Part shown: positions 2,516 to 32,206 of the stretch, piece by piece
Layout of the letters: every line of letters starts with the position of its first letter
Position numbering within the stretch: the first letter of the stretch is position 1
Source of the DNA: Saprospiraceae bacterium
GTDB taxonomy: Bacteria > Bacteroidota > Bacteroidia > Chitinophagales > Saprospiraceae
DNA: 37,773 nt
NCBI GenBank assembly: GCA_020627985.1
Contig: JAHDFV010000005.1
Coordinates: 1-37,773, forward strand
Direction of reading: 5' to 3'
The notes under the pieces: generated by a model
Database searches by the model: none
What the model was told of the DNA's origin: nothing
The model's input: only the letters and a program-made list of their open reading frames with translations
Made by a program: the position numbers and the translations under genes

Positions 2516-3781
2516 ATGACACAACAGGAATACGAAAATATGGAATTACTACGATTCACAACTGCAGGTAGTGTGGATGATGGTAAAAGTACATTAATCG
2601 GACGATTATTATACGATAGTAAATCTATATTCGAAGATCAATACGAGCAAGTTAAAAAAACAAGTGAAAGAAGAGGTGAAGAAGGAGTTAACTTAGCATT
2701 ATTAACGGATGGATTAAAATCTGAAAGAGAACAAGGTATTACAATTGATGTAGCATATAGATACTTTTCTACTCCAAAAAGAAAATTCATTATAGGTGAT
2801 ACACCAGGTCATATTCAATATACAAGAAATATGGTAACAGGTGCTTCAACTGCAAATGTAGCCCTTGTATTAATTGATGCAAGAAATGGTGTAGTTGAGC
2901 AAACAAGAAGACATGCAATTATTGCTTCATTATTGCAAATTCCTCATTTAGTCGTTTGTGTCAATAAAATGGATTTAGTTGATTACAAAGAAGATGCTTA
3001 TGAAAAGATTAAAGATGAATTTTCAAATTGGGCCTCTAAACTCGATGTGAAAGATGTGAGTTTCATTCCAATGTCTGCTTTAGCTGGTGATAACGTAGTG
3101 GATCAATCTGTAAACATGCCTTGGTATAAAGGTTCTACTTTATTATACTATTTAGAAAATGTACACATAGGGAGTGATCACAATTTAATTGATGTTCGGT
3201 TTCCTGTTCAGTATGTTATTCGTCCTTACAATGATGAATTCCATGATTATAGAGGTTACTCAGGAAGAGTAGCAGGTGGAATTATGAAAAAAGGAGATAA
3301 AGTAACGGTTCTACCTTCAGGATTTACATCAACAATTGCTAAGATAGATACATTTGATGGTGAATTAGAAGAAGCACATGCACCGATGTCTGTAACAGTA
3401 TTGTTAGAAGATGATATTGATATCAGTAGAGGAGATATGATTGTTAGAGAAAACAATCAACCAGAAGTTTCTCAAGATATTGAAGTAATGATTTCTTGGT
3501 TTCATGAAAAACCAATGCAGCCTAGAGGAAAATATACAATTATGCATACAACTAGAGAAGCTAGATGCGTAATAAAGGAAATAAATTACAAATTAGATAT
3601 CAATACACTTCATAGAAATCTTGAAGATCAAGAAATTAGAATGAATGATATTGCAAGAGTAACTTTACGTACTACTGTCCCATTATTTGCAGATCCATAC
3701 AGAAGAAATAGAATTACAGGTAGTATCATTTTAATTGATGAAGGCACCAATGAAACTGTTGGAGCTGGAATGATTATCTAA
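2516..3781 (+). CDS. cysN: sulfate adenylyltransferase large subunit (GTPase)
   Basis: GTPase motifs TAGSVDDGKSTLIGRLLYDSK, GITIDVAYRYF, GDTPGHIQYTRNM, NKMDLVDY. Standalone CysN with no fused CysC domain (421 aa). Confidence 0.97.
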   Translation: MTQQEYENMELLRFTTAGSVDDGKSTLIGRLLYDSKSIFEDQYEQVKKTSERRGEEGVNLALLTDGLKSEREQGITIDVAYRYFSTPKRKFIIGDTPGHIQYTRNMVTGASTANVALVLIDARNGVVEQTRRHAIIASLLQIPHLVVCVNKMDLVDYKEDAYEKIKDEFSNWASKLDVKDVSFIPMSALAGDNVVDQSVNMPWYKGSTLLYYLENVHIGSDHNLIDVRFPVQYVIRPYNDEFHDYRGYSGRVAGGIMKKGDKVTVLPSGFTSTIAKIDTFDGELEEAHAPMSVTVLLEDDIDISRGDMIVRENNQPEVSQDIEVMISWFHEKPMQPRGKYTIMHTTREARCVIKEINYKLDINTLHRNLEDQEIRMNDIARVTLRTTVPLFADPYRRNRITGSIILIDEGTNETVGAGMII

Positions 3782-7399: not shown

Positions 7400-8770
7400 T
7401 TGATCGATAAATTTTACAAAGCATTTATTGCTACTAATTCTTTTTTATTTATTGCTTTAATCCTTTTCCAATGGTTTACATTGGTAGATTTAGGTCCATT
7501 AAACTTCAAACAATATCATATTTTTATGTTATTGATGTTGTTAGGATTGTTTTTTCAAGATTTTAGAACTTCTTTATTTGCTTTTTTAAAGCAATTTCAA
7601 GTCTTTCTTACGTCTTATTTTTTAGTATTACTTGCTTATGGTATCTCTATTACTTGGACTGCTGAAGTAGGAGCAGCAATAGCATATTTATTTAAGGTAT
7701 CAGTTTATTATTTAGTATTTATACTGTTTTCAATTTTTATTATTGAAATAGTGCGGCTAAAATTGACCAAAATAATGTGCTATTCCGCAACATTTGGTTG
7801 TTTTAGTTTTATAGTTTTTGCTCAATTAGTCTTGTATCTAGCAGGAGAAAATCTTTTTAAAACATTAGCGTTGGGTTTGTTAAGTGGGAATCCTGCAATT
7901 TTAATGTATAGTATCTTTAAAAAGATTTTCAATTTCGATATTTTCACTTTTACTTTTTTTAGTAAAATGGATCGAGATCTTGCAATATTAGTGAGCATGA
8001 AAAATAACTTAGCAACAGGTTTTTTGATACACTATTTTGTAATAGCTCTTTTTCAGAAAGGAAGGAATTTTTTGTTTTCTATAGCAAAATATACTTCAGC
8101 TGCATTAATATTTATTACCATTAGTCGATCAAATATTATTGGCTTTGCATTTTCTATTCTTCTTTATTTAATCTTAACAGCTGAAGAAAAAAAAATGCAA
8201 TACTTATTACAAGTATTAGGCATCATTAGTATTACTGGACTTGTATTTTTTACATTTGCTGAGGAAATAATGAGTGTTTTTAGCGCTTTGTTTAGCCGTT
8301 TTAGTGAAATTTCGGATAATTCAAGAATAGGAATGTTTGAATTAGTAATGGAGAAGATTAAGTTACATCCAATCAAAGGATATGGCTTAGCAACTAAAAC
8401 TGATTTAGGAGATGGTCATGAAGGATATGTTCATAATTTCTTTTTGAATATTTGGTACATGAGTGGACTCTTGGGAATAGTGGCGGGTTTAACCATGTAT
8501 TTAAGTTTAACTTATTTATTCTTAAAAAGAATGCTTCATTATTTATTAAGAAAAAATAGACTTAAAATGTCTTTTTCTATTGCTTGGATGCTTGTACTAC
8601 CTGCACAGCCATTATTCAGAATTTTAGTTTCAGGCGGTGCTGGAGATTTTGCTTTCATGGAATGGGTTATACTCAGTTTCTATTTTGGATTATTATATGT
8701 ACTAATAAATGATCTAAACGAGAATAAAAATTTAAAATTTAATTCCCTAAAACATTTAAAATCAAGTTAA
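7400..8770 (+). CDS. O-antigen ligase/polymerase-like (Wzy_C type) membrane protein
   Basis: Multi-TM protein with late motif HPIKGYGLATKTDLGDGHEGYVHNFFLNIWYMSGLLGIVAG, typical of Wzy_C/O-antigen ligase domains. TTG start. Confidence 0.8.
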   Translation: MIDKFYKAFIATNSFLFIALILFQWFTLVDLGPLNFKQYHIFMLLMLLGLFFQDFRTSLFAFLKQFQVFLTSYFLVLLAYGISITWTAEVGAAIAYLFKVSVYYLVFILFSIFIIEIVRLKLTKIMCYSATFGCFSFIVFAQLVLYLAGENLFKTLALGLLSGNPAILMYSIFKKIFNFDIFTFTFFSKMDRDLAILVSMKNNLATGFLIHYFVIALFQKGRNFLFSIAKYTSAALIFITISRSNIIGFAFSILLYLILTAEEKKMQYLLQVLGIISITGLVFFTFAEEIMSVFSALFSRFSEISDNSRIGMFELVMEKIKLHPIKGYGLATKTDLGDGHEGYVHNFFLNIWYMSGLLGIVAGLTMYLSLTYLFLKRMLHYLLRKNRLKMSFSIAWMLVLPAQPLFRILVSGGAGDFAFMEWVILSFYFGLLYVLINDLNENKNLKFNSLKHLKSS

Positions 8771-8834: not shown

Positions 8835-9527
8835 ATGGATTTAAGACAGATCAATAAAATATATTCTGAAAAAAGCACAGAAGAAAGACTTCTCATGGCT
8901 TGGGAAGAATATGGAGGAGACATTTGTATGACATCTTCATTTCAGACACAAAGTGTACCGCTCTTATATTTAGTCGCTAAAACAATTCCTGAATTACCGG
9001 TTATATTTTTAGACACAGGTTTTCATTTTGCAGAAACATTAGCTTTTAGAGATCAACTAATTAATGATTATAATTTGAATGTCATTAATGTGAAAACAGG
9101 TATGGGGCACGATAATTTTAAAATGCAATATGGCAACCTGTATGAAATGGATCCAGATTTATGTTGCCATGTAAATAAAACATTACCCTTACAAGAAGAG
9201 TTAGATAAGTATAAGGCATGGATCGCAGGAGTAAGAGGAGATCAAACAGACAATAGAGCAGCAATGGATGTTGTGAATGTTCTAGAGGATGGGAAAGTAA
9301 AAATTTGCCCAATCATTGATTGGACAAAGAAAGATCTTTGGACTTTCCATACTAGAAATGAATTACCTTCTCATCCTTTATTTGTAAAAGGATTTATGAG
9401 TGTAGGTTGTGCGCCTTGTACAAGGGCTAGCAATGATGATACTGATGAGAGAGCAGGCAGATGGTCAGGAAATTGTAAAACAGAATGTGGTATTCATACC
9501 CACATTGGTAAAAAGAAAGACCAATAA
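8835..9527 (+). CDS. cysH: CysH-family reductase, APS reductase type ([4Fe-4S]-binding motif)
   Basis: SSFQTQSVPLLYL, FLDTGFHFAETLAFRD, CC motif (9162-9167, DLCCHVNKTLPL), AWIAGVRGDQTDNRA, CxxC (9408-9419, GCAPCTRASNDDTDERAGRWSGNCKTECGIH). CC...CxxC is the iron-sulfur signature of assimilatory APS reductases. Confidence 0.92.
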   Translation: MDLRQINKIYSEKSTEERLLMAWEEYGGDICMTSSFQTQSVPLLYLVAKTIPELPVIFLDTGFHFAETLAFRDQLINDYNLNVINVKTGMGHDNFKMQYGNLYEMDPDLCCHVNKTLPLQEELDKYKAWIAGVRGDQTDNRAAMDVVNVLEDGKVKICPIIDWTKKDLWTFHTRNELPSHPLFVKGFMSVGCAPCTRASNDDTDERAGRWSGNCKTECGIHTHIGKKKDQ

Positions 9528-10468
9528 TGCAAAAAATTTTAATAACGGGAGCTTGTGGTTACATCGGTTCTCAGTTACTAGATGAATTAAAACATTTTGA
9601 AGAAGCTGCACTTATTCGAATCTATGATAATTTTTCGACGGGTTCCTATAAGGCATTATTGGAATTACCTTCTCAACACACTTTTGAATTAATAGAAGGA
9701 GATATCTTAAATCCTCATGCACTGATAACTGTCATGAAAGATGTAGATATCGTTATACATTTAGCTGCAGTTGTATTAACTCCTATGGGTTTAGGTAGCA
9801 CAAAAATGGCAGAACAAGTCAATCATTGGGGTACTGTAAATGTATTAGAAGCTGCAATTAAGAATAAAGTGAAACATTTTATTCATGCAAGTTCAACGGC
9901 AGTATATGGTCCAATGATGGAAGGAAAACAGAAAGGAGAATTTAGACCTTTTGGAGCATATGCCAATTCTAAATATCATGCTGAACAAACGATTAAAGGA
10001 TATGTAGATCGGGGATTGGATATTACAATACTTAGAATTGGTACAGTATATGGTTTGGCAAAAGTAACAAGATTCGATGCAGTAATCAATAAATTTATTT
10101 GCACAGCTGGTACTAAAAAGATGATCAGTGTTCATGGAAAAGGGACGCAAAAAAGACCTTCAATACACATTAAAGATGCGGCTTCTGCCATCTTGTATGT
10201 TTTAAAAAATAAAGAAGATTTAAAAAATAGAAGTTTAGATGTGGTTGAGAAAGATTATTCTGTGAATAATATCGCTGAAACCATTGTAGAAATTTTCGAA
10301 AACATTAAACTTCGATACATAGATCAAGATATTAGAAATCATTATTCATTTGTAGCTGAAGGAAAAAAGCTAGATGAATATGGATGGAGCCCCACTTACA
10401 ATTTAGCATATGCTATTTCAAAAGATATACCTCAATTCAACGGCTTCAGAAAATTGAAATTAATTTAA
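9527..10468 (+). CDS. NAD-dependent epimerase/dehydratase (extended SDR)
   Basis: MQKILITGACGYIGSQLLDEL, HLAAVVLTPMG, ASSTAVYGPM, YANSKYHAE (YxxxK), LRIGTVYG. Confidence 0.88.
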   Translation: MQKILITGACGYIGSQLLDELKHFEEAALIRIYDNFSTGSYKALLELPSQHTFELIEGDILNPHALITVMKDVDIVIHLAAVVLTPMGLGSTKMAEQVNHWGTVNVLEAAIKNKVKHFIHASSTAVYGPMMEGKQKGEFRPFGAYANSKYHAEQTIKGYVDRGLDITILRIGTVYGLAKVTRFDAVINKFICTAGTKKMISVHGKGTQKRPSIHIKDAASAILYVLKNKEDLKNRSLDVVEKDYSVNNIAETIVEIFENIKLRYIDQDIRNHYSFVAEGKKLDEYGWSPTYNLAYAISKDIPQFNGFRKLKLI

Positions 10469-10486
10469 TTTAACAATACTTATTTA

Positions 10487-11509
10487 ATGGAAAGTAAATG
10501 GTCAGGCAAAAGTGTCCTTATCACAGGTGTCTGTGGTACAGTCGGTGCCGAGTTATTAAAACAGGTTTCCCAATTTAATCCTAAGGAAATAATTGGATTG
10601 GACAATAACGAAAGTGAATTGTTCTTTTTACAAAATTCCTACAGGGATAGAGATGATGTACATTTCTACATGTGTGATATTAAAAATAAATCACAATTGT
10701 CTGGATATTTCCAAGGAGTGGATATTGTATTGCATTCGGCAGCTAGAAAGCATGTAATCTTATGTGAGAAAGCTCCAAGTGAAGCAGTACAAACTAATAT
10801 TCTAGGTACACAAAATATTATAGATTGTGCACAAGAAGCAGGTGTAAAAAGAGTTCTATTTACTTCTTCTGATAAAGCAGTTAACCCAACAAATGTAATG
10901 GGTACAACTAAATTAATGGGAGAGCGTTTAATGACAGCTGCAAATGCTTCCAAAAGAAATAAATATCCAATTTTCGCTTCTACACGTTTTGGAAATGTAT
11001 TAGGTTCTAATGGATCTGTAATTCCTTTGTTTCAACGCCAAATTTTAGCAGGAGGACCTGTTACTTTGACCGATGAAAATATGTCAAGATTTGTCATGAC
11101 ATTAGAAGAAGCAGCAAGATTAGTGATGGAATCTGTTTTCTTAGCGAATGGAGGAGAAGTATTTGTAACGAAAATGCCTACTATTTCTATTAAAGATTTA
11201 GCCGTTTCTATGGTTGATATTTACAAAGAAAGAGATCAAGTAGATGGAGATATCGATATTAAAATTATCGGTGCTAAACCAGGAGAAAAATTATACGAAG
11301 AATTAATCAATGAAGAGGAAATTAGAAGAACCTTTGAAATCGATAATTACTTTGCTGTAATTCCTGCATTTAAATCTGTATATGGAGATATTAATTATGA
11401 TTTTGGTCCTAATTCTTCTCCAGTAGATAAAATTTACCGATCAGATTTAGAAGACTTCATGAGTGGAGATAATTTAAAGAATTATTTAACTGAAAATAAA
11501 CTAGTTTAA
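10487..11509 (+). CDS. Polysacc_synt_2-type nucleotide-sugar 4,6-dehydratase (CapD/PseB-like)
   Basis: GKSVLITGVCGTVGAELLKQ, HSAARKHVILCEKAPSEAVQTNILGTQNII, SSDKAVNPTNVMGTTKLMGERL, STRFGNVLGSNGSVIPLFQRQI. Confidence 0.9.
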   Translation: MESKWSGKSVLITGVCGTVGAELLKQVSQFNPKEIIGLDNNESELFFLQNSYRDRDDVHFYMCDIKNKSQLSGYFQGVDIVLHSAARKHVILCEKAPSEAVQTNILGTQNIIDCAQEAGVKRVLFTSSDKAVNPTNVMGTTKLMGERLMTAANASKRNKYPIFASTRFGNVLGSNGSVIPLFQRQILAGGPVTLTDENMSRFVMTLEEAARLVMESVFLANGGEVFVTKMPTISIKDLAVSMVDIYKERDQVDGDIDIKIIGAKPGEKLYEELINEEEIRRTFEIDNYFAVIPAFKSVYGDINYDFGPNSSPVDKIYRSDLEDFMSGDNLKNYLTENKLV

Positions 11510-11512
11510 ACA

Positions 11513-12664
11513 ATGAAAATAATAGTACTAGGAGCGGATGGTTATCTAGGATGGCCTACGTCTATGGACTTAGCCAATAAGGGACACCAAGTAATTGCAG
11601 TTGACAATTATTCTAGAAGAAATATTGCGATGCAAACATCTTCTGAAGGTTTAATGCATACGCCTAACTTAGAAGAAAGAGCTAAAATCTTTGAAGAAGT
11701 TTCGGGCAAAAAAATTGATGTAAGAATTGGTGATTTAAAGAATTACCGTTTTCTTGAAAATATGGTAAAAACGTTCAAACCAGATGCAATTGTGCATTAT
11801 GCTGAACAACCATCTGCACCATATTCTTTAAAAGGATACGAAGAAGCACACTATACTTTAAAGAATAACTTAGAAGTTACACACAATGTAATTTGGGCAG
11901 TATTAGAACATGCTCCTGATTGTCACCTTGTAAAATTAGGTACAATGGGTGAGTATGGTACTCCAAATATTGATATCGAAGAAGGTTGGTTAAATATCGA
12001 GCATAACGGTAGAAAAGGTAAATTCCTTTTCCCTCGTGCTGCAGGGTCATTATACCATACCACTAAAGTATTAGATACAGATTTACTTTGGTTCTATGTA
12101 AGAACATTTGGATTAAGAGTAACAGATTTAATGCAGGGACCAGTATATGGTTTATCTACAACAGAATCTGACATGGACGAAAGGTTATTACCTAACTTCC
12201 ACTATGATGATATCTTTGGTACAGTTGTAAATCGTTTCTTAGTTCAAGCAGTAGCTGGAGTTCCTTTAACTGTTTATGGAAAAGGAGGTCAAATTAGAGG
12301 ATACTTAAACCTTAAGGATACTTTACAATGTGTAGACTTAGCGTTAAATAATGTAGCTGACAAAGGAGAATTAAGAATCTTCAATCAGTTAACAGAAACA
12401 TTTACTGTAAATGAATTAGCTGAAAATGTACAAAAAGCAGGTGCTGCATTAGGATTAAATGTTGAAGTTAAATCTATTCCAAATCCAAGAAAAGAAGCGG
12501 AAGAACATTATTATAATCCAAAATATACTGGATTAATGGATTTAGGTTTAAAACCAAACTTAATGACAACTGAAGTTTTAGGTGAAATGCTTAAAATTAT
12601 CATCAAATACAAAGGAAATATCGATAATGAAAAGATATTCCCTCGTGTAAAATGGAATAAATAA
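11513..12664 (+). CDS. sqdB: UDP-sulfoquinovose synthase (SQD1/SqdB/Agl3 family)
   Basis: MKIIVLGADGYLGWPTSMDLANKGHQVIAVDNYSRR; DAIVHYAEQPSAPYSLKG; CHLVKLGTMGEYGTPNIDIEEGWLNIEHNGRKGKFLFPRAAGSLYHTTKVLDTD; YGKGGQIRGYLNLKDTLQCVDLA; FNQLTETFTVNELAENVQKAG; PNPRKEAEEHYYNPKYT. Candidate catalytic Thr144, Tyr181 and Lys185 align with the T/Y/K triad I recall for Arabidopsis SQD1. Confidence 0.92.
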   Translation: MKIIVLGADGYLGWPTSMDLANKGHQVIAVDNYSRRNIAMQTSSEGLMHTPNLEERAKIFEEVSGKKIDVRIGDLKNYRFLENMVKTFKPDAIVHYAEQPSAPYSLKGYEEAHYTLKNNLEVTHNVIWAVLEHAPDCHLVKLGTMGEYGTPNIDIEEGWLNIEHNGRKGKFLFPRAAGSLYHTTKVLDTDLLWFYVRTFGLRVTDLMQGPVYGLSTTESDMDERLLPNFHYDDIFGTVVNRFLVQAVAGVPLTVYGKGGQIRGYLNLKDTLQCVDLALNNVADKGELRIFNQLTETFTVNELAENVQKAGAALGLNVEVKSIPNPRKEAEEHYYNPKYTGLMDLGLKPNLMTTEVLGEMLKIIIKYKGNIDNEKIFPRVKWNK

Positions 12665-12683
12665 TTCCGAATCTATCCATCAA

Positions 12684-12714
12684 TATCAAACTGGGAGTTA
12701 CTCCCAGTTTGATA
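12684..12714 (+). terminator. 31-nt perfect palindrome / hairpin (TATCAAACTGGGAGT-T-ACTCCCAGTTTGATA)
   Basis: 15-nt arms are exact reverse complements around a single central T, located 20 nt after the sqdB-like stop. GC-containing stem, but the downstream T tract is weak (CTTTAATATG). Confidence 0.7.
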
Positions 12715-12730
12715 CTTTAATATGATATAA

Positions 12731-13723
12731 ATGAATTGGTTAATAACTGGCGGTTGTGGTTTCTTAGGTAGAAATCTAATAAAATCTTTGTTAGATGAAG
12801 GTAGAGATATTTCTATCCGAATTATTGATAACTTATCAGTAGGTTCTTTTGAAGATTTAAGTTATGCTACAGATAATGCTGTAGAAGTAAGCATGGCTGA
12901 TGCCAATTGGAACAAAAAAGAAATACAATTAGTCGTTGGCGACATCATGGATGAAAAATTAGCACTAGAAATAACTAAAGGTGCTAATGTGATCGTTCAT
13001 CTGGCAGCGAATACTGGGGTTGGGCCTTCTGTTGAAAATCCAAGAATGGATTGTGTAACCAATGTAATTGGTACATTTAATTACTTAGAAGGATGTAGAA
13101 TTAATAAAGTAAAGCGTTTTGTTTTTGCATCAAGTGGCGCACCAATTGGAGAATGTATTCCACCAATTCATGAAGAATTACCTTGTCATCCTGTATCTCC
13201 ATATGGCGCAAGTAAATTAGCTGGTGAAGCATATTGTTCTTCATACAATAAAACATTTGAAGTAGATACTGTTGCTCTTAGATTTGGAAATGTTTATGGA
13301 CCAGGCTCTACACATAAAAGTAGTGTTGTAGCGAAATTTATTCGCCAAGTATTTGCTGGAGAAACCTTAGAAATTTATGGTAGTGGAAAACAAACCAGAG
13401 ATTTTATTTATGTTGGTGATTTAGTGAGAGCCATATGGTTAGCAGCAACGAAAGAAAATGTTGGAGGTGAAATTTTCCAAATTGCAACCAATAAAGAAAC
13501 AACGGTTTTAGAAGTAACTGAAGAATTATTAAAAGCTTTAGCTCGTTTTAATTTTACAGATGTGAATATTATTCATGGAGAAAAAAGATTGGGTGATGTA
13601 ATGAGAAATTTCTCAGATACAAGCAAAGCAAAAGCAAAATTAGGTTGGGAGCCACTTACATTTATTGAAGACGGTTTAGATAAAACGATTTCTTGGTTTA
13701 TGAAAATTAATGGCAAAGCCTAA
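12731..13723 (+). CDS. NAD-dependent epimerase/dehydratase (UDP-glucose 4-epimerase-like SDR)
   Basis: MNWLITGGCGFLGRNLIKSLL, VHLAANTGVGPSVENPRMDCVTNVIGTFNYLEG, SSGAPIGE, YGASKLAGEAYCSSY, LRFGNVYGPGSTHKSSVVAKFI. Confidence 0.88.
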   Translation: MNWLITGGCGFLGRNLIKSLLDEGRDISIRIIDNLSVGSFEDLSYATDNAVEVSMADANWNKKEIQLVVGDIMDEKLALEITKGANVIVHLAANTGVGPSVENPRMDCVTNVIGTFNYLEGCRINKVKRFVFASSGAPIGECIPPIHEELPCHPVSPYGASKLAGEAYCSSYNKTFEVDTVALRFGNVYGPGSTHKSSVVAKFIRQVFAGETLEIYGSGKQTRDFIYVGDLVRAIWLAATKENVGGEIFQIATNKETTVLEVTEELLKALARFNFTDVNIIHGEKRLGDVMRNFSDTSKAKAKLGWEPLTFIEDGLDKTISWFMKINGKA

Positions 13724-13780: not shown

Positions 13781-15139
13781 TTGAATAAATTAATAGATAA
13801 AGTACTCAATTTATTGGGTAAAAAAGGTGGGGCAGATACTTCTGAAATTTTAAAAGGAGGTGCTACCGCTTTTTTACTTAAGATTTTTGGTATCCTTAGT
13901 ACTTATGCGCTAACACTATTAATTACCAACAAATATGGAGCAGACATTTATGGAAATTATTCCTTTTTTGTAGCTTCTATTCGTATTTTAGGAATTGTAG
14001 CGATTTGCGGAATAGATATTTATTTACTTCGCTATATTTCTAAAAATAGTACAAATAATGATTGGCGAGAAATCATAAATTTAAATCGCAAAGGAGTAAT
14101 TGCGGTTCTTTCCAGTTCTTTTGTATTCTTTTCAGTATTAATATTAGGGCAAGATTATTTTTCCTACAAATTAGAAGTAACAGATTTTTTTATTCTTCTT
14201 CTAGCTATTGGAATAATACCTTTTACCTTATTTAAAATACATAATCAATCTTTCAGAGCGAGAAAGAACACACTTTGGTTTTCGCTTTTTGATTATATAT
14301 CAATTCCTTTTTTTACGATACTGATTTTATTAGCTTGTATTCTATTCAATGTAGAAAAAGCTGAATTACCTGTTATTGCTTTTTTCTCTGCAGTTTGTTT
14401 AGCTGCAATTTTCTCCATGACAAAATGGAGATTTTCTATTTCCAAGGAAAAAGAAAATTTAAAATTAAGTTCTTTTAAAGAAAATGTCAAAGAAGTACCA
14501 CAGCTATATAAATTGGCTTTTCCTTTTTTATTAGCAAGTTCTTCTTTGTTAATTGGACATTGGATTGTTCAACTCATGTTGAAGGTGTATAGTGGAAATT
14601 CAGAGTTAGGTATTTATGATGCGGCATTAAAAGTTGCTCAATTAACTATGTTACCATTAATGGCAAGTAATATTATTGCTGCTCCTAAATTCTCGGAATT
14701 CTTTACCAAAAATCAATTCAATCGTTTAGCCAATACAGCAAAAAATATTACCAATAGTATTGTCTTCATTACAGTACCGATTTTGATTGTTTGTTTTTTG
14801 GGAGCTGACTTTATCGTGAGTATTTTTGGGAAAGATTTTGAAGGGGCTGCTTTGGCTTTAAGGATAATTATTGTAGGACAATTTTTTAATTCTTTAACAG
14901 GTCCTGTTGGAGTTATTCTACAAATGACAGAAAATCAAAGCACTTTTAAAAATATAATTATGTTTACTACTGTAATTAATATTGCAGTAGGTGTTTTATT
15001 GATACCTATTTTAGGAGCAGTAGGTGCTGCAATTACCAATATGATTTTTCAAATTTTAACCAATGGAACTTGTACTTATTTTGTCTATAAGAAATTTGGT
15101 TTCCTTCCTTTTGGTCGTAAAAAATCTGTAGTACAATAG
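13781..15139 (+). CDS. oligosaccharide flippase (Wzx/RfbX-like, MATE/MOP superfamily)
   Basis: Hydrophobic 452-aa protein; LKGGATAFLLKIFGILSTYALTLLITNKYGADIYGNYSFFVA start and repeated TM pattern typical of Wzx. TTG start. Confidence 0.87.
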   Translation: MNKLIDKVLNLLGKKGGADTSEILKGGATAFLLKIFGILSTYALTLLITNKYGADIYGNYSFFVASIRILGIVAICGIDIYLLRYISKNSTNNDWREIINLNRKGVIAVLSSSFVFFSVLILGQDYFSYKLEVTDFFILLLAIGIIPFTLFKIHNQSFRARKNTLWFSLFDYISIPFFTILILLACILFNVEKAELPVIAFFSAVCLAAIFSMTKWRFSISKEKENLKLSSFKENVKEVPQLYKLAFPFLLASSSLLIGHWIVQLMLKVYSGNSELGIYDAALKVAQLTMLPLMASNIIAAPKFSEFFTKNQFNRLANTAKNITNSIVFITVPILIVCFLGADFIVSIFGKDFEGAALALRIIIVGQFFNSLTGPVGVILQMTENQSTFKNIIMFTTVINIAVGVLLIPILGAVGAAITNMIFQILTNGTCTYFVYKKFGFLPFGRKKSVVQ

Positions 15140-17033: not shown

Positions 17034-17828
17034 ATGGGAAAAGATAAAAGAAGTAGACTACAAATTTGGAGTGCCAATTTAAAAAGACTCTATATGTGGC
17101 ACTTTAAAAACAAAAAATTAGGACTAGTATTAGTTACAGAATTTCCTAAATCAGGTGGGACATGGTTTTGTCAAATGTTAGAACAAGCAACGGGTATTCC
17201 TTTTCCTAGGAATGTAAGTCCTAATTTTGAAGAAGCAATAATGCATGGTCATAATATTTATCATAAGAATTACGGTAAAGTAATTTGTATTTTAAGAGAT
17301 GGACGAGACATAATGGTCTCAGCTTACTTTCATTTTTTATTTGAAAATGATAGGAATCCATCATTTAGCGTAAAAAATTACCGATCAAAAATGCCTTTTG
17401 ATGATTATGAGAATGTAGAAAAAAATATGCCTGAATTCATAAAATATATGTTTAATGGATATGCAGCAAAATGGAATCATAGCAGTTGGAGTCAAGTGGT
17501 AAATGCTAGTGTAGATAATTCAAATGTTTGTATTGTTAAATATGAAGAATTATTATCTGATGCACCTTCAGCAATGGATAGAGCTATTCGTTTTGTAGGT
17601 AAAACGCCTGTAAGTAGAGAAAAATTACAAGCAGTTGTAGATGATTTTTCTTTTAAAAAATTGACAAAGAGAAAACCTGGAGATGAAAATAAAAAGAGTT
17701 TCTTAAGGAAGGGAATAGCAGGAGATTGGAAAAATTATTTTAATCAAGAATCAATAGATCTATTTAAAAAATTAGCTGGAGCAGAATTAATTAAAGCTGG
17801 CTATGAAAAAAATATGGATTGGAAATAA
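17034..17828 (+). CDS. sulfotransferase (Sulfotransfer_1-like)
   Basis: VLVTEFPKSGGTWFCQMLEQATGIPFPRN (5'-PSB loop), KVICILRDGRDIMVSAYFHF (3'-PB), FLRKGIAGDWKNYFNQE (C-terminal RKGxxGDW motif). Confidence 0.93.
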   Translation: MGKDKRSRLQIWSANLKRLYMWHFKNKKLGLVLVTEFPKSGGTWFCQMLEQATGIPFPRNVSPNFEEAIMHGHNIYHKNYGKVICILRDGRDIMVSAYFHFLFENDRNPSFSVKNYRSKMPFDDYENVEKNMPEFIKYMFNGYAAKWNHSSWSQVVNASVDNSNVCIVKYEELLSDAPSAMDRAIRFVGKTPVSREKLQAVVDDFSFKKLTKRKPGDENKKSFLRKGIAGDWKNYFNQESIDLFKKLAGAELIKAGYEKNMDWK

Positions 17829-17841
17829 TCGAGGATAGAAG

Positions 17842-18999
17842 ATGAAAGTAATTAATATATTAGAAGAAGGTATTTATGGCGGACCACAAAGAAGAGTTCT
17901 TGAAGTAGCCAAAAGATTAAAATCCGATTATAATATAGAAACCGAAGTCCTTCTACCTGATAATCCAGATTCTGATCGTTTTATAAAAGAAATGACAGAT
18001 GCAGGAGTTCAATTTACTGCACTAAAAAGATTCAACAGGATTACAAAAGATAAGAAAAAACTTTTGATGTTTATTATCTTTTTTATTCCTGAATTGATTT
18101 ATATGTATCGATGGTTGAAAAAGAAAAAACCAGCAGTAGTTCATTGTAATGGAGCTTGGCAAATTAAAGGAGTTATTGCTTCTAGATTAGCAGGCGTGAA
18201 AAATGTTTGGCATTTAAATGATACTTCAATGCCTTGGTTTATTAGAGTATTATTTAAAATAGTAGCTAGGCTATTTACAGATTCATTTATTCTAGCTTGT
18301 GAAAGAACAAAAGAATATTACATTAATAGTCCTGCATTAGAAAAAAGGAAATGTAAAATAATTCAAGCGCCAGTTGATACAGTAAGATTTAATCCAGAAG
18401 TTGTAGAGAACAATGATGTTGATTTATTAAAATATAAAGACCATATAAAAGTATTAACCGTAAGTAATGTGAATTTTATGAAAGGGTTAAAAACATTTAT
18501 TCGTATGGCGCACCAAGTAACTCAAATGTTACCAAATGAAAAATTAATTTTTATTGTAGTTGGTGTTATTCGAGATAGTCAATTGGGATATTATAATGAA
18601 TTGCTTAAAATTCAAAAAGAATTAAAAGTAGATAATCTCATTTTTACAGGACCTAAAAATAATATTCCTGAAGTATTAAAAGGAACAGATATTTATGTTT
18701 GTTCTTCAAATTTTGAGGCATCACCTATCTCTGTCTGGGAATCTTTATCTATGGCAAAACCTGTAGCATCTACAGATGTAGGAGATGTGAAAAAGATTTT
18801 TGAAGAAAATAAATGTGGTTTAGTTGTTCCTACTCAAGCACCAAAAGAATTAGCTGAAATAGTAATAAAATTAATTCAAGATAAAACCTTAGCAGAGCAA
18901 CTAGGAAAACAAGCCAGAGAAACAGCATTAAATAAATTAGATATTAATGCATGTGTGAAAAGGCACAGTGAAATGTATAAAGAAATAGCAAAAGCATAA
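17842..18999 (+). CDS. GT4-family glycosyltransferase
   Basis: EEGIYGGPQRRVLEVAKRL, VHCNGAWQIKGVIASRLAG, VSNVNFMKGLKTFIRMA, DIYVCSSNFEASPISVWESLSMAKPVASTDVGDV (EX7E). Confidence 0.9.
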   Translation: MKVINILEEGIYGGPQRRVLEVAKRLKSDYNIETEVLLPDNPDSDRFIKEMTDAGVQFTALKRFNRITKDKKKLLMFIIFFIPELIYMYRWLKKKKPAVVHCNGAWQIKGVIASRLAGVKNVWHLNDTSMPWFIRVLFKIVARLFTDSFILACERTKEYYINSPALEKRKCKIIQAPVDTVRFNPEVVENNDVDLLKYKDHIKVLTVSNVNFMKGLKTFIRMAHQVTQMLPNEKLIFIVVGVIRDSQLGYYNELLKIQKELKVDNLIFTGPKNNIPEVLKGTDIYVCSSNFEASPISVWESLSMAKPVASTDVGDVKKIFEENKCGLVVPTQAPKELAEIVIKLIQDKTLAEQLGKQARETALNKLDINACVKRHSEMYKEIAKA

Positions 19000-21022: not shown

Positions 21023-22372
21023 ATGCTCCATTCAAAAAAAATAATAAGGATGTTAATAGATTTGATAGGTATAAACCTATCCTATTATATTTCCTTTTTT
21101 TTAGTAACAGGAGATCTTTATCCTAATAAAGAACATATATACTTAGGGATAATTATTAATCTTCTTTGGTTTTCAACTTTATCTTTAGCCAATAAATTAT
21201 ATGGTCGTTTTGAATACACCACATTTAGAGTTGAAATTCAAAGTGTCTTCAATAATTATCTATTACATTTTATAGGATTAACACTAATTTATCTCCTACT
21301 ATTTAGTATGGATTGGTCGTTTATACCTGTTTTCTATGTAACCTTAGCCATTCTTCTCCCTCTAGGTAGATTTTTATTAAAACGATATATCCCAAGTATG
21401 GGAAGAGTAGAAATGCTCAATTATATTGTTATTGGATATTGTGATGTATTGCAAAAAGTTGAAGGAACAATTGGAAATGCACACCTCGGAAAAGTAAAAT
21501 ATTTAGGATCTGTTGGTAATAATATACCTGAACCATATAAAAAAATAGGTACAGTTGATAAAATTTACGATTACATTAAAGAGCATAATGTCAATATGAT
21601 TATATATGCTTCTGATGAAATGAAAGGAAAAGATGTTAGAAGATTAATGAATTATTCATTATTAAATTTCATCGATTTTAAAATCATTCCATTAGAAGTA
21701 GATTTAATTTCTGGAGGGGTTAAAATGGAAGTTCACAACGGCTATCCAATTATTTCTGTCAAAGATGAAGATATTGCAAGATTAAGAAATCGTTTTCTAA
21801 AAAGATCTTTTGATATTGTATTTTCATTTTTAGTCATTGTATTTATTCTTTCTTGGTTATATCCCTTATTATCTTTTTTAATAAAATATCAATCGCCAGG
21901 TCCAGCCTTATTTAATCAAGCAAGAGTAGGCTATAGAAATAATAATTTCATCTGCCATAAATTTAGATCAATGGTCTTAAATACGGAGGAAGAAAAACAA
22001 GCAACAAAAGATGATGCTAGAATTACTAAAATTGGTGCATTTCTCCGAAAATCCAATTTAGATGAAATGCCTCAATTTTTCAATGTATTCAAAGGTGATA
22101 TGTCTGTAGTGGGTCCTAGACCGCACGCTATTTCTTTAGATAAAGAATTAGCAAATGAAATTGAAAGTTATATCTTAAGACATTACACAAAACCTGGAAT
22201 TACTGGATGGGCTCAAGTTAATGGTTTTAGAGGACCAACTGAAACCAAAGAATCAAAAGAAGGGCGAACAAGTCACGATATTTGGTATTTAAGAAATTGG
22301 TCATTCTTTTTTGATATCAAAATAATCTTCCTCACATTATTTGGTGGTAAAACACAAGATAATGCCTTTTAA
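21023..22372 (+). CDS. undecaprenyl-phosphate glycosylphosphotransferase (WcaJ-like initiating enzyme)
   Basis: N-terminal TM segments, CoA-binding-like middle, C-terminal KRSFDIVFSFLVIVFILSWLYPLLSFLIKYQSPGPALFNQARVGYRNNNFICHKFRSM...LDEMPQFFNVFKGDMSVVGPRPHA...KPGITGWAQVNGFRG. Confidence 0.95.
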   Translation: MLHSKKIIRMLIDLIGINLSYYISFFLVTGDLYPNKEHIYLGIIINLLWFSTLSLANKLYGRFEYTTFRVEIQSVFNNYLLHFIGLTLIYLLLFSMDWSFIPVFYVTLAILLPLGRFLLKRYIPSMGRVEMLNYIVIGYCDVLQKVEGTIGNAHLGKVKYLGSVGNNIPEPYKKIGTVDKIYDYIKEHNVNMIIYASDEMKGKDVRRLMNYSLLNFIDFKIIPLEVDLISGGVKMEVHNGYPIISVKDEDIARLRNRFLKRSFDIVFSFLVIVFILSWLYPLLSFLIKYQSPGPALFNQARVGYRNNNFICHKFRSMVLNTEEEKQATKDDARITKIGAFLRKSNLDEMPQFFNVFKGDMSVVGPRPHAISLDKELANEIESYILRHYTKPGITGWAQVNGFRGPTETKESKEGRTSHDIWYLRNWSFFFDIKIIFLTLFGGKTQDNAF

Positions 22373-25485: not shown

Positions 25486-26886
25486 TTGGAAATTTTAAAA
25501 GACATTTCAAATCTTGTTTTTCAAGGGGGAGACGAACGGCTAGATATTCTAGAAACAGGGAATAATAAATATCATATTAATCCTACTGTATATGATAATC
25601 TTTTTAATAGAGGTTCTTGTACCTGTTCTACTTTAAATCCCTTAACAGCAAAAGTTCTGGAAGAAACGGATTTATTCGAAACACCAGATAATATAATTGC
25701 TACAAGAGATCATCAAATAAAAAGAATTAAATCTTTATTAAATTATGAAGGTAAAGATGAATTTGATTTAGTCTTTGCTCCTTCAGGAAGTGATTTGGCT
25801 TATCTGCCCATTCTTTTTTCTAAAATCCTTAAACCGACAAAAGAAATTTTATTAATCTTGACTTGTCCTGAGGAATTAGGTTCAGGGAGTCAAATGGCAT
25901 ATTTAGGAAAATATTATGCCAATAGAAATCAGTTTGGAGAAGAAGTGGAAAAAGGAGAAGACATTAATTTAAGATATGATGTCAACTTAGCTCGTTTTAA
26001 AGCGAGAAACGATGAAGGACAAATTATAAAACATAGCAATGAAATTAGCGATGTTTTAATTCAAGATAAAAAGAAATCAAAAATAGGTGCTTTAGTAATT
26101 GGTAGTAAATCAGGAATAGAAGATGATATTTCTTTAATTCCAAAATTGGATAAAGATGTGATGTGGGTGGTGGATTTATGCCAATTTAGAAATTCTAAAA
26201 GTTTAGTAAATCATCTTTTGGGAATGGGCTGTATGGTAATGATTACAGGCTCTAAGTTTTATATGGCTCCGCCATTTTGTGGAGTAATGTTAGTTCCTAA
26301 ATCAATGACTCAAAAAATCAATGACTCAGAAATATTACCAAAATATACAGAAGGTTTTGATAAAATTTTTTCACAATATGATTTCACAAATGGATTTTCT
26401 AACTTGAAAAAACATTTTAGGAAAAAAATAAATAAAGGATTAATATTAAGATGGGAGATTGCTTTAAATGAAATGGAAAGATTTAATGATATTCCTAGAG
26501 CTAATTCTTCAAAATTAATTCAAAGTTGGAATGCTACCATTCGTAATTCTATTCTAGAAAGTAATTCTTTTGAATTAATGCCTCATCAAGAAAAAACGAA
26601 TCAAAGTATTATTTCTTTTAGAGTGAAATCTAGATTCGGTACTTATTTAAGTTATGATGATTTAAAGGGTTTCTATCAAGAAACGGTAAATGATAATTAT
26701 GAAATAGGTTCATACACAAAAATATTTTTTGGACAACCTGTTAAATATAGTTGTGGCGCATTTATTCGTGTAGCCTTAGGGGCAAATAATATTTATACCC
26801 TTTTACAAGAAGAAGAGAATACTAGATTTGATAATGATAAATTATTTATGAAAATCCTAGATGAAAAAGCCAATTCATTTATATAG
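25486..26886 (+). CDS. divergent PLP-dependent enzyme, fold type I (aminotransferase class V-like)
   Basis: FDLVFAPSGSDLAYLPILFSKIL (SGSD phosphate-site-like), MWVVDLCQFRNS (Asp of DxxQ-like motif), MVMITGSKFYMAPPFCGVMLVP (candidate Schiff-base Lys). TTG start. Family inferred only from motifs. Confidence 0.6.
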   Translation: MEILKDISNLVFQGGDERLDILETGNNKYHINPTVYDNLFNRGSCTCSTLNPLTAKVLEETDLFETPDNIIATRDHQIKRIKSLLNYEGKDEFDLVFAPSGSDLAYLPILFSKILKPTKEILLILTCPEELGSGSQMAYLGKYYANRNQFGEEVEKGEDINLRYDVNLARFKARNDEGQIIKHSNEISDVLIQDKKKSKIGALVIGSKSGIEDDISLIPKLDKDVMWVVDLCQFRNSKSLVNHLLGMGCMVMITGSKFYMAPPFCGVMLVPKSMTQKINDSEILPKYTEGFDKIFSQYDFTNGFSNLKKHFRKKINKGLILRWEIALNEMERFNDIPRANSSKLIQSWNATIRNSILESNSFELMPHQEKTNQSIISFRVKSRFGTYLSYDDLKGFYQETVNDNYEIGSYTKIFFGQPVKYSCGAFIRVALGANNIYTLLQEEENTRFDNDKLFMKILDEKANSFI

Positions 26887-28144: not shown

Positions 28145-29104
28145 ATGAAAATTCTTGTCACAGGAGGTGCTGGATTTGTAGGTTCAAATATTGTTGAAGC
28201 ACTACTCCAAGATAAAAGAGTAACATTCGTAAGAGTTTTGGATGATCTCTCAACAGGATTTTTACATAACTTAGAAGAGTTTATGTCTAATCCAAACTTT
28301 GAATTTATCAAAGGCGATATAAGAAATTACCAAACCTGCTTAGATGCTTTTCAGGGGATTGATGCCATTACACATCAAGCAGCTTTAGGCTCTGTTCCTA
28401 GGTCAATAAATGATCCAATCAAAACGAATACAGTAAATATAGACGGTTTCTTAAACGTCTTTACTGCTGCGAAAGAATTGGGAATTAAACGAGTTGTTTT
28501 TGCAGCATCTTCTTCAACCTATGGTGATAACAAAGCTTTACCTAAAGTAGAAGATAATATAGGAAATCCATTATCACCTTATGCCGTTACTAAATTAGTA
28601 AACGAATTATACGCCAGAGTTTTTGGCGATATATATGGAATGGAATATGTAGGATTGCGTTACTTCAATATTTTCGGGCCTAGACAAGATCCAAACGGAG
28701 CGTATGCTGCTGTAATTCCTTTATTTATGAAAGCTGCTATCAACAACAATCCTCCAACAATAAACGGTGACGGATCTTTTAGTAGAGATTTTACTTATGT
28801 GAAAAATGCTGTACAAGCAAACTTATTAGCATTGTTTACAGAAAATAAAGAAGGCTTAAATCAAATTTATAATATTGCTTTAGGAGAAAGAACAACATTA
28901 AATGATCTGTGGACATCCATCAAAGATCATGCAGGTTGTGATAAAAAAGCAATTCACGGTCCTGAAAGAAGTGGCGATGTTCCTCATAGTTTAGCAGATA
29001 TTTCAAAGGCTAGAAAATTATTAGGATATAATCCAGAAATTAAAATAGATGAAGGATTAGGCTTAGCATACGAATGGTATACTAAATTTGTAGCCAATGT
29101 CTAA
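28145..29104 (+). CDS. UDP-N-acetylhexosamine(uronate) 4-epimerase-like SDR (WbpP/TviC type)
   Basis: MKILVTGGAGFVGSNIVEALL, THQAALGSVPRSINDPIKTNTVNIDGFLNV, ASSSTYGDNKALPKVEDNIGNPLSPYAVTKLVNELYA, RYFNIFGPRQDPNGAYAAVIPLF. Confidence 0.92.
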   Translation: MKILVTGGAGFVGSNIVEALLQDKRVTFVRVLDDLSTGFLHNLEEFMSNPNFEFIKGDIRNYQTCLDAFQGIDAITHQAALGSVPRSINDPIKTNTVNIDGFLNVFTAAKELGIKRVVFAASSSTYGDNKALPKVEDNIGNPLSPYAVTKLVNELYARVFGDIYGMEYVGLRYFNIFGPRQDPNGAYAAVIPLFMKAAINNNPPTINGDGSFSRDFTYVKNAVQANLLALFTENKEGLNQIYNIALGERTTLNDLWTSIKDHAGCDKKAIHGPERSGDVPHSLADISKARKLLGYNPEIKIDEGLGLAYEWYTKFVANV

Positions 29105-30110
29105 AGGAAAAGTTTTTATTATAGCTGAGATAGGTCAAGCACATGATGGCAGTTTAGGAATCCTCCATTCCTACATTGATGCGCTAGCGGAAACAGGGAT
29201 TGATGCCATAAAATTTCAAACGCACATAGCCGAAGCAGAAAGTAGTCAACATGAGCCTTTTAGAGTCAACTTTAGTTATGAAGATAAAACACGTTATGAC
29301 TATTGGGATAGAATGGGTTTTACCAAAGAACAATGGCAGGGTATCAAAAAACATTGTGATGAAGTTGGACTAGAATTTATGTCTTCTCCTTTCTCACAAG
29401 CAGCGGTTGATTTGCTTGAGGAAGTTGGAGTGAAGCGATATAAAATTGGTTCAGGAGAAGTAACAAATTACTTGATGTTAGAGAAAATTGCTAAGACGAA
29501 TAAACCAATTATTCTTTCTTCAGGAATGAGCTCTTTTCAAGAAATAGATGATGCCGTTGCTTTCATTCAAACCTTTGGAAATGATTTAAGTATTGTACAA
29601 TGTACCACAAGCTATCCGACACCTTATGACCGCTTAGGCTTAAATGTCATTACTGAATTGAAAGAAAAATATCCCAAATTAAAAATTGGTTTATCTGAAC
29701 ATACAGGATCTATTTATGCAGGAATAGCGGCAACAGCAATAGGAGCAGAATTATTAGAATTTCATGCCGTTTTTGATCGAAGAATTTTTGGACCAGATGC
29801 TAAATCATCTATGACCATTGATGAAATAAAACAGCTGGTAGAAGGAGTAAGAAACATTGAAGCTTCTTTAGCGAATCCCATTAATAAATCGGATAATTCT
29901 CAATATACAGACCTGAAGAAAATCTTTGAAAAATCGCTAGCGATTAATAAAGATGTAAAAAAAGGGCATACCATTCGATTTGATGATTTAGAAGCCAAAA
30001 AACCGAAAGGTTATGGAATTGATGCTTCTCAATTTAGAAATGTGATTGGAAAGAAATTAAAATCAGATAAATCCCAATACGATTTCATAAAAACGGAAGA
30101 TCTTGAGTAA
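29097..30110 (+). CDS. neuB: N-acetylneuraminate/nonulosonate synthase with SAF domain
   Basis: FIIAEIGQAHDGSL, DAIKFQTH, GLEFMSSPFSQAAVDLLEEVGVKRYKIGSGEVTNYLML, ILSSGMSSFQEI, CTTSYPTPYDRLGLN, GLSEHTGSIYAGIAA; C-terminal SAF-like IRFDDLEAKKP. Confidence 0.95.
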   Translation: MSKGKVFIIAEIGQAHDGSLGILHSYIDALAETGIDAIKFQTHIAEAESSQHEPFRVNFSYEDKTRYDYWDRMGFTKEQWQGIKKHCDEVGLEFMSSPFSQAAVDLLEEVGVKRYKIGSGEVTNYLMLEKIAKTNKPIILSSGMSSFQEIDDAVAFIQTFGNDLSIVQCTTSYPTPYDRLGLNVITELKEKYPKLKIGLSEHTGSIYAGIAATAIGAELLEFHAVFDRRIFGPDAKSSMTIDEIKQLVEGVRNIEASLANPINKSDNSQYTDLKKIFEKSLAINKDVKKGHTIRFDDLEAKKPKGYGIDASQFRNVIGKKLKSDKSQYDFIKTEDLE

Positions 30111-31260
30111 AAGAAAAATATGTGTTGTAGTAACAGCACGACCCAGTTATAGTAGAATAAAAACGGCTTTACAAGCAATTAAAGATCATCCCGATTTAGA
30201 ATTAATGTTAGTCGTAGCAGCTTCTGCTTTATTAGAACGATACGGTACAGCCGTCAATTATATGGAAAAAGATGGCTTTGAAATTAAAGCCAGAGTTTTC
30301 AATGTTTTAGAAGGAGAAAATCTAACAGCTCAAGCTAAAACAACAGGTTTAGGCATTTTAGAATTAGCAACAGTCTTTGAACGATTAGAGCCTGATGCAG
30401 TCGTAACCGTTGCAGATCGTTTTGAAACCATGTCTACGGCAATTGCAGCTTCTTATATGAATATTCCATTAGTACACATTCAAGGAGGTGAAGTGACTGG
30501 AAATATCGATGAAAAGGTAAGGCATGCTATTACTAAGCTTTCTGATTTGCATTTAGTAGCTACAGCCAAAGCAAAAGAACGATTGATTAAAATGGGAGAA
30601 TTCCCCAAAAAAGTTTTTGTAACAGGTTGTCCCTCTATTGATATTGCTCATGAAATTCTAGTCAATCACGAATTCGATTTTGATCTCTTTGGTAAATATG
30701 GAGGAGTAGGAATACAACCAGATTTATCCAATGGATACATTGTGGTAATGCAACATCCTGTTACCACAGAATATAAAATGTCAAGAGAACACATCGAATT
30801 GACATTAAATGCCATTAATGAATTAAAGATACCAACACTTTGGTTTTGGCCGAATGTAGATGCAGGTTCTGATGGTACATCCAAAGGAATAAGAAGTTAT
30901 AGAGAAAAATATAAAATGGAACACATCCATTTCTTTAAGAATATGGAACCATTAGATTTCTTGAAAGTCCTTAAAAACAGTAATTGTTTAATTGGTAATT
31001 CAAGTGTAGGAATTAGAGAGTGTGCTTATTTAGGAATACCCGTAGTAAATATAGGTTCTAGACAGAGTGGTAGAGAAAGAGGTAAAAATGTTCTAGATGT
31101 AACGTATGATAAAGATGCAATAAAAACAGCAGTTTTATCTCAAGTGAAAAACGGTCATTATTCACCCGATAAAATATATGGCGGTGGAGTATCAGGAACG
31201 GAAATAGCTGACCTTTTATCTACAGAAGAATTAACCTTCAGTAAAATATTGAGTTACTAA
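30103..31260 (+). CDS. neuC: UDP-N-acetylglucosamine 2-epimerase (hydrolysing type)
   Basis: RKICVVVTARPSYSRIKTALQAI, DRFETMSTAIAASYMNIPLVHIQGGEVTGNIDEKVRHAITKLSDLHL, CLIGNSSVGIRECAYLGIPVVNIGSRQSGRERGKNVLDV. TTG start inside neuB. Confidence 0.95.
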   Translation: MSKRKICVVVTARPSYSRIKTALQAIKDHPDLELMLVVAASALLERYGTAVNYMEKDGFEIKARVFNVLEGENLTAQAKTTGLGILELATVFERLEPDAVVTVADRFETMSTAIAASYMNIPLVHIQGGEVTGNIDEKVRHAITKLSDLHLVATAKAKERLIKMGEFPKKVFVTGCPSIDIAHEILVNHEFDFDLFGKYGGVGIQPDLSNGYIVVMQHPVTTEYKMSREHIELTLNAINELKIPTLWFWPNVDAGSDGTSKGIRSYREKYKMEHIHFFKNMEPLDFLKVLKNSNCLIGNSSVGIRECAYLGIPVVNIGSRQSGRERGKNVLDVTYDKDAIKTAVLSQVKNGHYSPDKIYGGGVSGTEIADLLSTEELTFSKILSY

Positions 31261-31264
31261 GAAT

Positions 31265-32206
31265 ATGAAAATCTTAATAGCGGAACCCGAAGATTTTAGT
31301 GAAGCGGTAATCGCTAAATTGAGAAAACATGCAACAGTAGATGTTGAACAATGTGAACCGCATAAAATAAAATGGGCATTAGAAAACTATGATGTTTTTT
31401 GGTTCAGATTAGCGCATAAAATGAACGCAGATGTTTTGACAGAAAACTCGCGCTGCAAAATTTTAGCGACTCCTGTTACAGGCATAGATCATATAGATAT
31501 TCCTTTATGTGAAAAGTTAGGGATTCAGATTGTTTGCCTTAAAGGCGAACGAGAATTTTTAAAAGAAGTAAGAGCGACTTCAGAAATGGCAATCGGTTTA
31601 GCCATGAGTGTAATGCGAAATATTCCTCGAGCAAACGAAGCGGTTAAAAAAGGAGAATGGGAAAGAGATCTGTATCGAGGGAATGAATTATACAAGAAAA
31701 CAATTGGTATCATTGGTTTCGGAAGACTAGGAGCGATTATGGCAGATTATGCCAAAGCTTTTGGAATGAAAATCGTTGCCGTTGAACCGAGAGAAGAAAC
31801 CAAGATCGGTGTAGAAGGAGTTGAGTTTTTATCATCTCTTGAAGAATTAGCAAGAGTATCCGATGTGATTTCTCTTCATGTGAATTACAATGAAGAAACA
31901 CATCATTTATTAAATGAGTCATTTTTTAAAGCGTGTAAAGCCAGCTCTTTTTTTATTAATACTTCAAGAGGTGGAATTGTAGATGAGAAAGCATTAGTGA
32001 AAGCTTTAGAAAATAAATGGATACAAGGTGCTGGATTAGATGTGCTACAAGGAGAACCAGAAGTACAAAATAACGTTCTAATCCAGTATGCTAAGAAGAA
32101 TAAAAATATAGTCATTGTACCACACATTGGTGGTAACACATATGAGTCTTTTGAGAAAACAGAACATTTTATAGCAGATAAAATTATTAAATTAATTGGC
32201 ACTTAA
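31265..32206 (+). CDS. D-isomer-specific 2-hydroxyacid dehydrogenase
   Basis: ATPVTGIDHIDIPLCEKLGI, KKTIGIIGFGRLGAIMADYAKAFGMKIVAVEP, FINTSRGGIVDEKALVKALENKWIQGAGLDVLQGEP, VPHIGGNT. Confidence 0.92.
   Translation: MKILIAEPEDFSEAVIAKLRKHATVDVEQCEPHKIKWALENYDVFWFRLAHKMNADVLTENSRCKILATPVTGIDHIDIPLCEKLGIQIVCLKGEREFLKEVRATSEMAIGLAMSVMRNIPRANEAVKKGEWERDLYRGNELYKKTIGIIGFGRLGAIMADYAKAFGMKIVAVEPREETKIGVEGVEFLSSLEELARVSDVISLHVNYNEETHHLLNESFFKACKASSFFINTSRGGIVDEKALVKALENKWIQGAGLDVLQGEPEVQNNVLIQYAKKNKNIVIVPHIGGNTYESFEKTEHFIADKIIKLIGT

Follow-up and report, generated by a model that had tools for sequence, protein, structure and literature searches.

Closest described systems

SQD1 and SqdB (structures 1qrr and 1i24) are the UDP-sulfoquinovose synthases of sulfolipid formation, and Agl3 of Sulfolobus acidocaldarius is an SQD1-type enzyme that provides UDP-sulfoquinovose for N-glycans, its product going to a glycan and not to a lipid. 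The active-site residues of Agl3 have been described, and the variant R101A is inactive (PMC4388408). When sulfite is left out SQD1 and Agl3 form the 5,6-ene of UDP-Glc, and the UDP-GlcNAc 5,6-dehydratase Pen of Bacillus thuringiensis has UDP-6-deoxy-GlcNAc-5,6-ene as its product (PMC8987622, PMC4388408).

The SQD1-like gene described here is located in a window of 37,773 nt, the whole stretch of DNA analysed, which is an entire contig of a 4.07 Mb Saprospiraceae-family MAG (82.7% complete), the contig ends being the window ends. Its product resembles SQD1 and SqdB in full-length homology, fold and the Tyr-x3-Lys, Thr, Met, Glu and Tyr residues, but differs from them by a separate lineage in the tree, Pro in place of Arg101, a PF02719 neighbour, a polysaccharide context and the lack of SqdD. 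Agl3 requires Arg101 whereas the present protein has Pro, as judged from the Agl3 residues described in PMC4388408, and the present gene is found in a Wzx/Wzy locus together with CysH and a dehydratase partner. We consider it likely that these genes form a sulfosugar module that is fed with sulfite, is assisted by the partner and serves a polysaccharide both sulfated and sulfonated.

Organization of the locus

The features are as follows, all on the + strand.

893-1498, + strand: CysC, APS kinase (PAPS supply); TIGR00455, 252 bits, above the cut-off
1529-2431, + strand: CysD, sulfate adenylyltransferase small subunit; TIGR02039, 414.5 bits, above the cut-off
2516-3781, + strand: CysN, sulfate adenylyltransferase large subunit; TIGR02034, 568 bits, above the cut-off
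7400-8770, + strand: Wzy polymerase; PF04932 (Wzy_C)
8835-9527, + strand: CysH, Fe-S PAPS/APS reductase, putative sulfite source; NF002537, 235 bits with a cut-off of 154; CC, CAPC and ECGIH
9527-10468, + strand: extended SDR between CysH and the partner, epimerase/reductase-like; gene order kept in relatives
10487-11509, + strand: partner SDR of PF02719, similar to Pen, WbpM and CapE; located 3 bp before the SQD1-like gene; motif SSDK..M..K; closest structure Pen (6bwc)
11513-12664, + strand: SQD1-type SDR, predicted sulfite-adding nucleotide-sugar enzyme; phmmer, Foldseek, NF041015; Pro100 at Agl3 Arg101
12731-13723, + strand: extended SDR similar to GalE and RmlB, which may epimerise the sulfosugar or a precursor of it; homologs in 32 of 80 loci
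13781-15139, + strand: Wzx flippase; PF01943/PF01554
15139-16047, + strand: PAPS sulfotransferase 1; PF00685, 67.6 bits; PAPS loop GANKSGTTS
17034-17828, + strand: PAPS sulfotransferase 2; PF00685, 82.8 bits; PAPS loop PKSGGTW
17842-18999, + strand: GT4 glycosyltransferase, candidate sulfosugar transferase; homologs in Saprospiraceae SQD1-like loci
21023-22372, + strand: priming sugar-phosphate transferase; PF02397, E 2.2e-60

With Wzx, Wzy, the priming transferase and further glycosyltransferases all present, the region is a Wzx/Wzy locus, and the placement of the SQD1-like gene in an EPS locus rather than among sulfolipid genes, proposed in a preliminary description of this DNA, is borne out. 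A Wzi-like protein at 22491 scores slightly below the cut-off. The five genes from CysH to the second extended SDR (8835-13723) are separated by only -1, 18, 3 and 66 bp, and the order CysH-SDR-partner-SQD1 is preserved in three other genomes of the family (G049, G115 and G042; G-numbers designate Saprospiraceae-family genomes, G000 being the source MAG, and L-numbers the loci and contigs compared), in Cyclobacteriaceae L025 and in Chloroflexota L034 and L053. Homologs of the SDR at 12731 are mostly found beside the SQD1/partner pair, and homologs of the GT4 at 17842 (44-50% identity) in four of the five other Saprospiraceae SQD1-like loci, in G115 directly after the SQD1-like gene. A nonulosonic acid block with NeuB- and NeuC-like genes and a cytidylyltransferase, into which a hydroxyacid dehydrogenase is inserted, is located at 28145-32891, and two ORFs inside the locus, 25486-26886 (466 aa) and 34836-35138 (100 aa), show no match in Pfam or NCBIfam.

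The SQD1-like protein

The ORF at 11513-12664, the boundaries of which are exact, starts with ATG and encodes 383 aa. By phmmer the product matches Arabidopsis SQD1 (1qrr) over its full length (residues 2-383) with 421 bits (E 5e-125). The SQD1 motifs listed in the preliminary description are all found in the translation, namely KLGTMGEYGTPNIDIEEG at 141-158, HNGR at 164-167, YHTTKVLD at 181-188, YGKGGQIRGYL at 255-265 and NPRKEAEEHYYN at 324-335. The Thr/Tyr/Lys catalytic set named there corresponds to Thr144, Tyr181 and Lys185, and His95, Met145, Glu147 and Tyr148 are also kept. The structure prediction and superposition on SQD1 that it had suggested gave an AlphaFold model (mean pLDDT 84.6, with an alignment of 31 related sequences) that in Foldseek has TM-scores of 0.93 and 0.91 to 1qrr and 1i24 at 48% identity, the next-best structures, which are GalE- and RmlB-like, reaching only about 0.65-0.71; the loop of residues 146-158 has low confidence. 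The score against NF041015, the NCBIfam model of UDP-sulfoquinovose synthase, is 463.5 bits with a cut-off of 575, a shortfall that was rejected as counter-evidence since the proven Arabidopsis SQD1 (484.7 bits) is likewise below the cut-off.

Pro100 occupies the position of Arg101 in Agl3. All SQD1-like proteins of the 80 closest loci carry Pro at position 101 and those of the SQD1/SqdB lineage uniformly Arg, and the replacement of a residue essential in Agl3 speaks against the sulfosugar module. That it proves a loss of activity was considered and rejected, Pro being usual in viral homologs and in partner-less haloarchaeal and some Chloroflexota outgroups; NF041015 prefers Arg by only 2 bits when a single-residue variant is scored against the profile alone. 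An IQ-TREE tree of 79 sequences, none of them cyanobacterial, places the Arg-type proteins (Arabidopsis, Chloroflexota and SqdB) in one group (97/93) and the relatives of the SQD1-like protein in a second (96/92), and the partner-linked SQD1-like proteins fall within a group of 41 that includes seven viral sequences (99/97). The Arabidopsis SQD1 sequence clusters with SqdB of proteobacteria and with homologs from Chloroflexota and Actinomycetota. Because Pro occurs also in viral and outgroup sequences, and is the common outgroup state, Arg looks like a derived mark of the sulfolipid lineage of SQD1 and SqdB.

The earlier designation as a UDP-sulfoquinovose synthase homolog thus stands as far as a full-length SQD1-type protein is concerned, but as a name for the enzyme it goes a step too far: the lineage is separate, the Arg needed by Agl3 is missing and a Pen/WbpM-like dehydratase neighbour is nearly constant, and the exact sugar may therefore differ. 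The product may be either UDP-sulfoquinovose or a different 6-sulfo sugar, such as one of GlcNAc, made jointly with the partner. A literature search found no reported activity for any member of the Pro-type, partner-linked lineage, a further point against the sulfosugar module. The two lineages can be distinguished by Arg or Pro and by the partner gene, where annotation may name both UDP-sulfoquinovose synthase.

The partner dehydratase

Of the 80 closest SQD1-like loci of the contig collection, which are not independent of each other, 67 have a PF02719 SDR as immediate neighbour of the SQD1-like gene on the same strand (58 upstream and 9 downstream) and six more have one elsewhere in the locus, and six of the seven loci without it are near a contig end. 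The loci belong to Bacteroidota, Chloroflexota, Actinomycetota, Pseudomonadota, Nitrospinota, Nitrospirota, Planctomycetota, Myxococcota and Thermodesulfobacteriota. No PF02719 partner was found within the fetched stretches of 63 Arg-type loci (Rhodobacteraceae and rhizobial SqdB, Chloroflexota and Actinomycetota). The distance matrices of the SQD1-like and partner proteins are correlated with r 0.44, the maximum of 999 shuffles being 0.245. Among solved structures Pen (6bwc) comes closest to the partner, with an identity of 41% and TMq of 0.88-0.90, and is followed by FlaA1, WbjB, CapE and PglF, and SSDK or STDK with Met-x3-Lys is found in 71 of 73 partner proteins. The partner is nearest to Pen in sequence and fold and shares the DK acid/base pair, but it has Met where the Pen motif [ST]DK..Y-x3-K has Tyr, and its neighbour is an SQD1-type enzyme whereas that of Pen is Pal.

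The partner might contribute to the polysaccharide without taking part in the sulfosugar pathway. In this sub-case of the sulfosugar module the SQD1-like enzyme alone would convert UDP-Glc to UDP-sulfoquinovose and the partner would make a 4-keto-6-deoxy-HexNAc, giving two sugars of one glycan. The characterised SQD1 homologs act on UDP-Glc alone (PMC4388408), and the Met-x3-Lys of the partner is as in the UDP-GlcNAc 4,6-dehydratases WbpM and PglF (PMC8987622). We regard two separate sugars as a serious possibility, though with somewhat less than even chances, as the solved structure nearest to the partner is that of Pen, a 5,6-dehydratase, and not that of WbpM or PglF, and the adjacency over many phyla, in otherwise unlike loci, exceeds what would be expected for independent sugars.

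As Pen makes a 5,6-ene, and SQD1 and Agl3 form one without sulfite, a hand-over of the 5,6-ene from the partner to the SQD1-like enzyme would by analogy be chemically reasonable. More tentatively, the partner could then convert UDP-GlcNAc to UDP-6-deoxy-GlcNAc-5,6-ene in a Pen-like manner and the SQD1-like enzyme, with sulfite from CysH, form UDP-6-deoxy-6-sulfo-GlcNAc. Two enzymes would in this case provide a sulfonated amino sugar for polysaccharides in many bacterial phyla, a reading to which we would give perhaps one chance in a few. A literature search that was thin on carbohydrate journals found nothing on sulfoquinovosamine or other sulfonated amino sugars in polysaccharides.

Supply of sulfite

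The cysteines CC and CAPC and the tail ECGIH of the CysH at 8835 are as in Fe-S APS/PAPS reductases. It thereby resembles assimilatory CysH but is located with the SQD1-like gene and not with a sulfite reductase, none being found in this genome. In the source genome (82.7% complete) PF01507 was found in no genes other than the CysD and CysH of the locus. A search for NIR_SIR sulfite reductase gave none in the source genome G000 (82.7% complete), in G074 (94%) or in G115 (100%), the same search being positive in four of seven genomes and 11 of 14 controls. G042, G049, G186 and G593 have one CysH a few kb from a sulfite reductase on the same contig and also a second CysH, which in G186 is on another contig and in the other three genomes inside the SQD1 cassette. 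The cassette CysH of G049 (L012:15906-16412) is shortened, with an ORF of 168 aa. Sulfotransferases require PAPS, not sulfite, and a CysH in the cassette without a sulfite reductase therefore points to a direct use of sulfite.

Within the fetched flanks CysH is found in 10 of the 80 closest SQD1-like loci where 0.4-0.6 would be expected by chance, an excess that is still large when the dependence among loci and the lower certainty of the weaker matches (27-31%) are allowed for. CysH is missing from the fetched flanks of most loci, so that sulfite there must come from elsewhere. This counts against the sulfosugar module, as does the fact that the source genome is 83% complete and the contig stops at the window, and it fits a different reading: an enzyme of SQD1 descent, acting as UDP-sugar dehydratase or epimerase, that has lost the use of sulfite, with CysH and CysCDN serving general sulfur supply and the sulfotransferases. 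Such a loss would agree with Pro at the position of the Arg essential in Agl3, and SQD1 enzymes without sulfite behave as 5,6-dehydratases (PMC8987622). It is nevertheless unlikely, as CysH is enriched near the SQD1-like gene, no sulfite reductase was found in the three Saprospiraceae genomes named above, which carry that gene, and Pro is common in outgroups, it being Arg that marks the derived sulfolipid lineage. CysH would then also be without a role in the locus, given the PAPS requirement of the sulfotransferases.

Proposed pathway and destination of the sugar

The sulfosugar module is the best explanation that we find for the homology, the fold, the gene set, the conserved neighbourhood and the distribution of CysH and sulfite reductase. 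The reaction and its substrate, and the parts played by partner and transferase, would be as follows. CysD and CysN should form APS and CysC PAPS, which CysH would reduce to sulfite on site. The SQD1-type SDR would add the sulfite at C6 of a UDP-hexose to give a UDP-6-deoxy-6-sulfo-sugar, with the steps of SQD1-type enzymes: bound NAD+ would oxidise C4, the C6 hydroxyl would be lost, sulfite added and C4 reduced. The Pen/WbpM-like partner is expected to act in the same pathway, either as maker of the precursor, e.g. a 5,6-ene, or as modifier of the product. The GT4 at 17842 would then probably incorporate the sulfosugar into the Wzx/Wzy polysaccharide, which the two sulfotransferases would also O-sulfate.

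The sulfonated sugar thus probably goes into polysaccharide rather than lipid. This destination, favoured already in the preliminary description, is supported by the Wzx, Wzy, priming transferase and glycosyltransferase genes, by the sulfite supply through CysH and by the absence of SqdD and of any SqdX-like (SQD2-like) gene from the 37,773-nt window, which had likewise been noted. In the genome-wide search for sqdD and sqdX that it had proposed, SqdD was not found in six Saprospiraceae genomes, with a query of limited reach that was positive in a Mesorhizobium control and not in two other Alphaproteobacteria. For SqdX the absence does not hold entirely, as the SqdX-like query, presumed to be such because it lies next to Arg-type genes in Rubrobacter and one Chloroflexota genome, matched one GT4 of 31% identity on another contig of the source genome (G000:C229) and a similar one in G042, with nothing comparable in G049, G074, G115 and G186. 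An SQDG pathway in the source organism is unlikely. That the gene makes ordinary UDP-sulfoquinovose for SQDG and is merely placed in a polysaccharide locus is highly improbable, for although the nearest characterised relative is SQD1, a sulfolipid enzyme, and the GT4 of G000:C229 is related to that beside the Arg-type homologs, this GT4 is distant, unlinked and without a strong counterpart in four genomes, SqdD is missing where its control is positive, and the Saprospiraceae SQD1-like loci are flanked by polysaccharide genes.

If the sulfosugar module is correct for this lineage, C-S sulfonates would have a second origin that has been overlooked, in non-photosynthetic bacteria belonging to many phyla, some of them with their own sulfite supply, and so would the strongly anionic, acid-stable charge of biofilm matrices.

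Distribution

The SQD1-like gene is rare, being present in 5 of 198 other genomes of the family and in none of 395 sampled from the rest of the phylum. This rarity, together with relatives scattered over phyla, suggests horizontal spread of the SQD1-like/partner pair. Among cultured bacteria the pair is carried by Thioclava indica, Parahaliea maris, Sneathiella chinensis, Rubrobacter marinus and Desulfatibacillum alkenivorans. A search of phage records gave no match, and plasmids no relative above 48%. None of the viral relatives of the partner adjoins an SQD1-like gene. Many SQD1-like proteins are encoded on the IMG/VR contigs L226-L313, with Pro at position 101 in 67 of 69 distinct ones, and on two of these contigs, L265 and L273, CysH adjoins the SQD1-like gene. 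A Pro-type gene without partner is found in Chloroflexota (L193:6622-10403), located between a semialdehyde dehydrogenase and a gene of the histidinol-dehydrogenase family.
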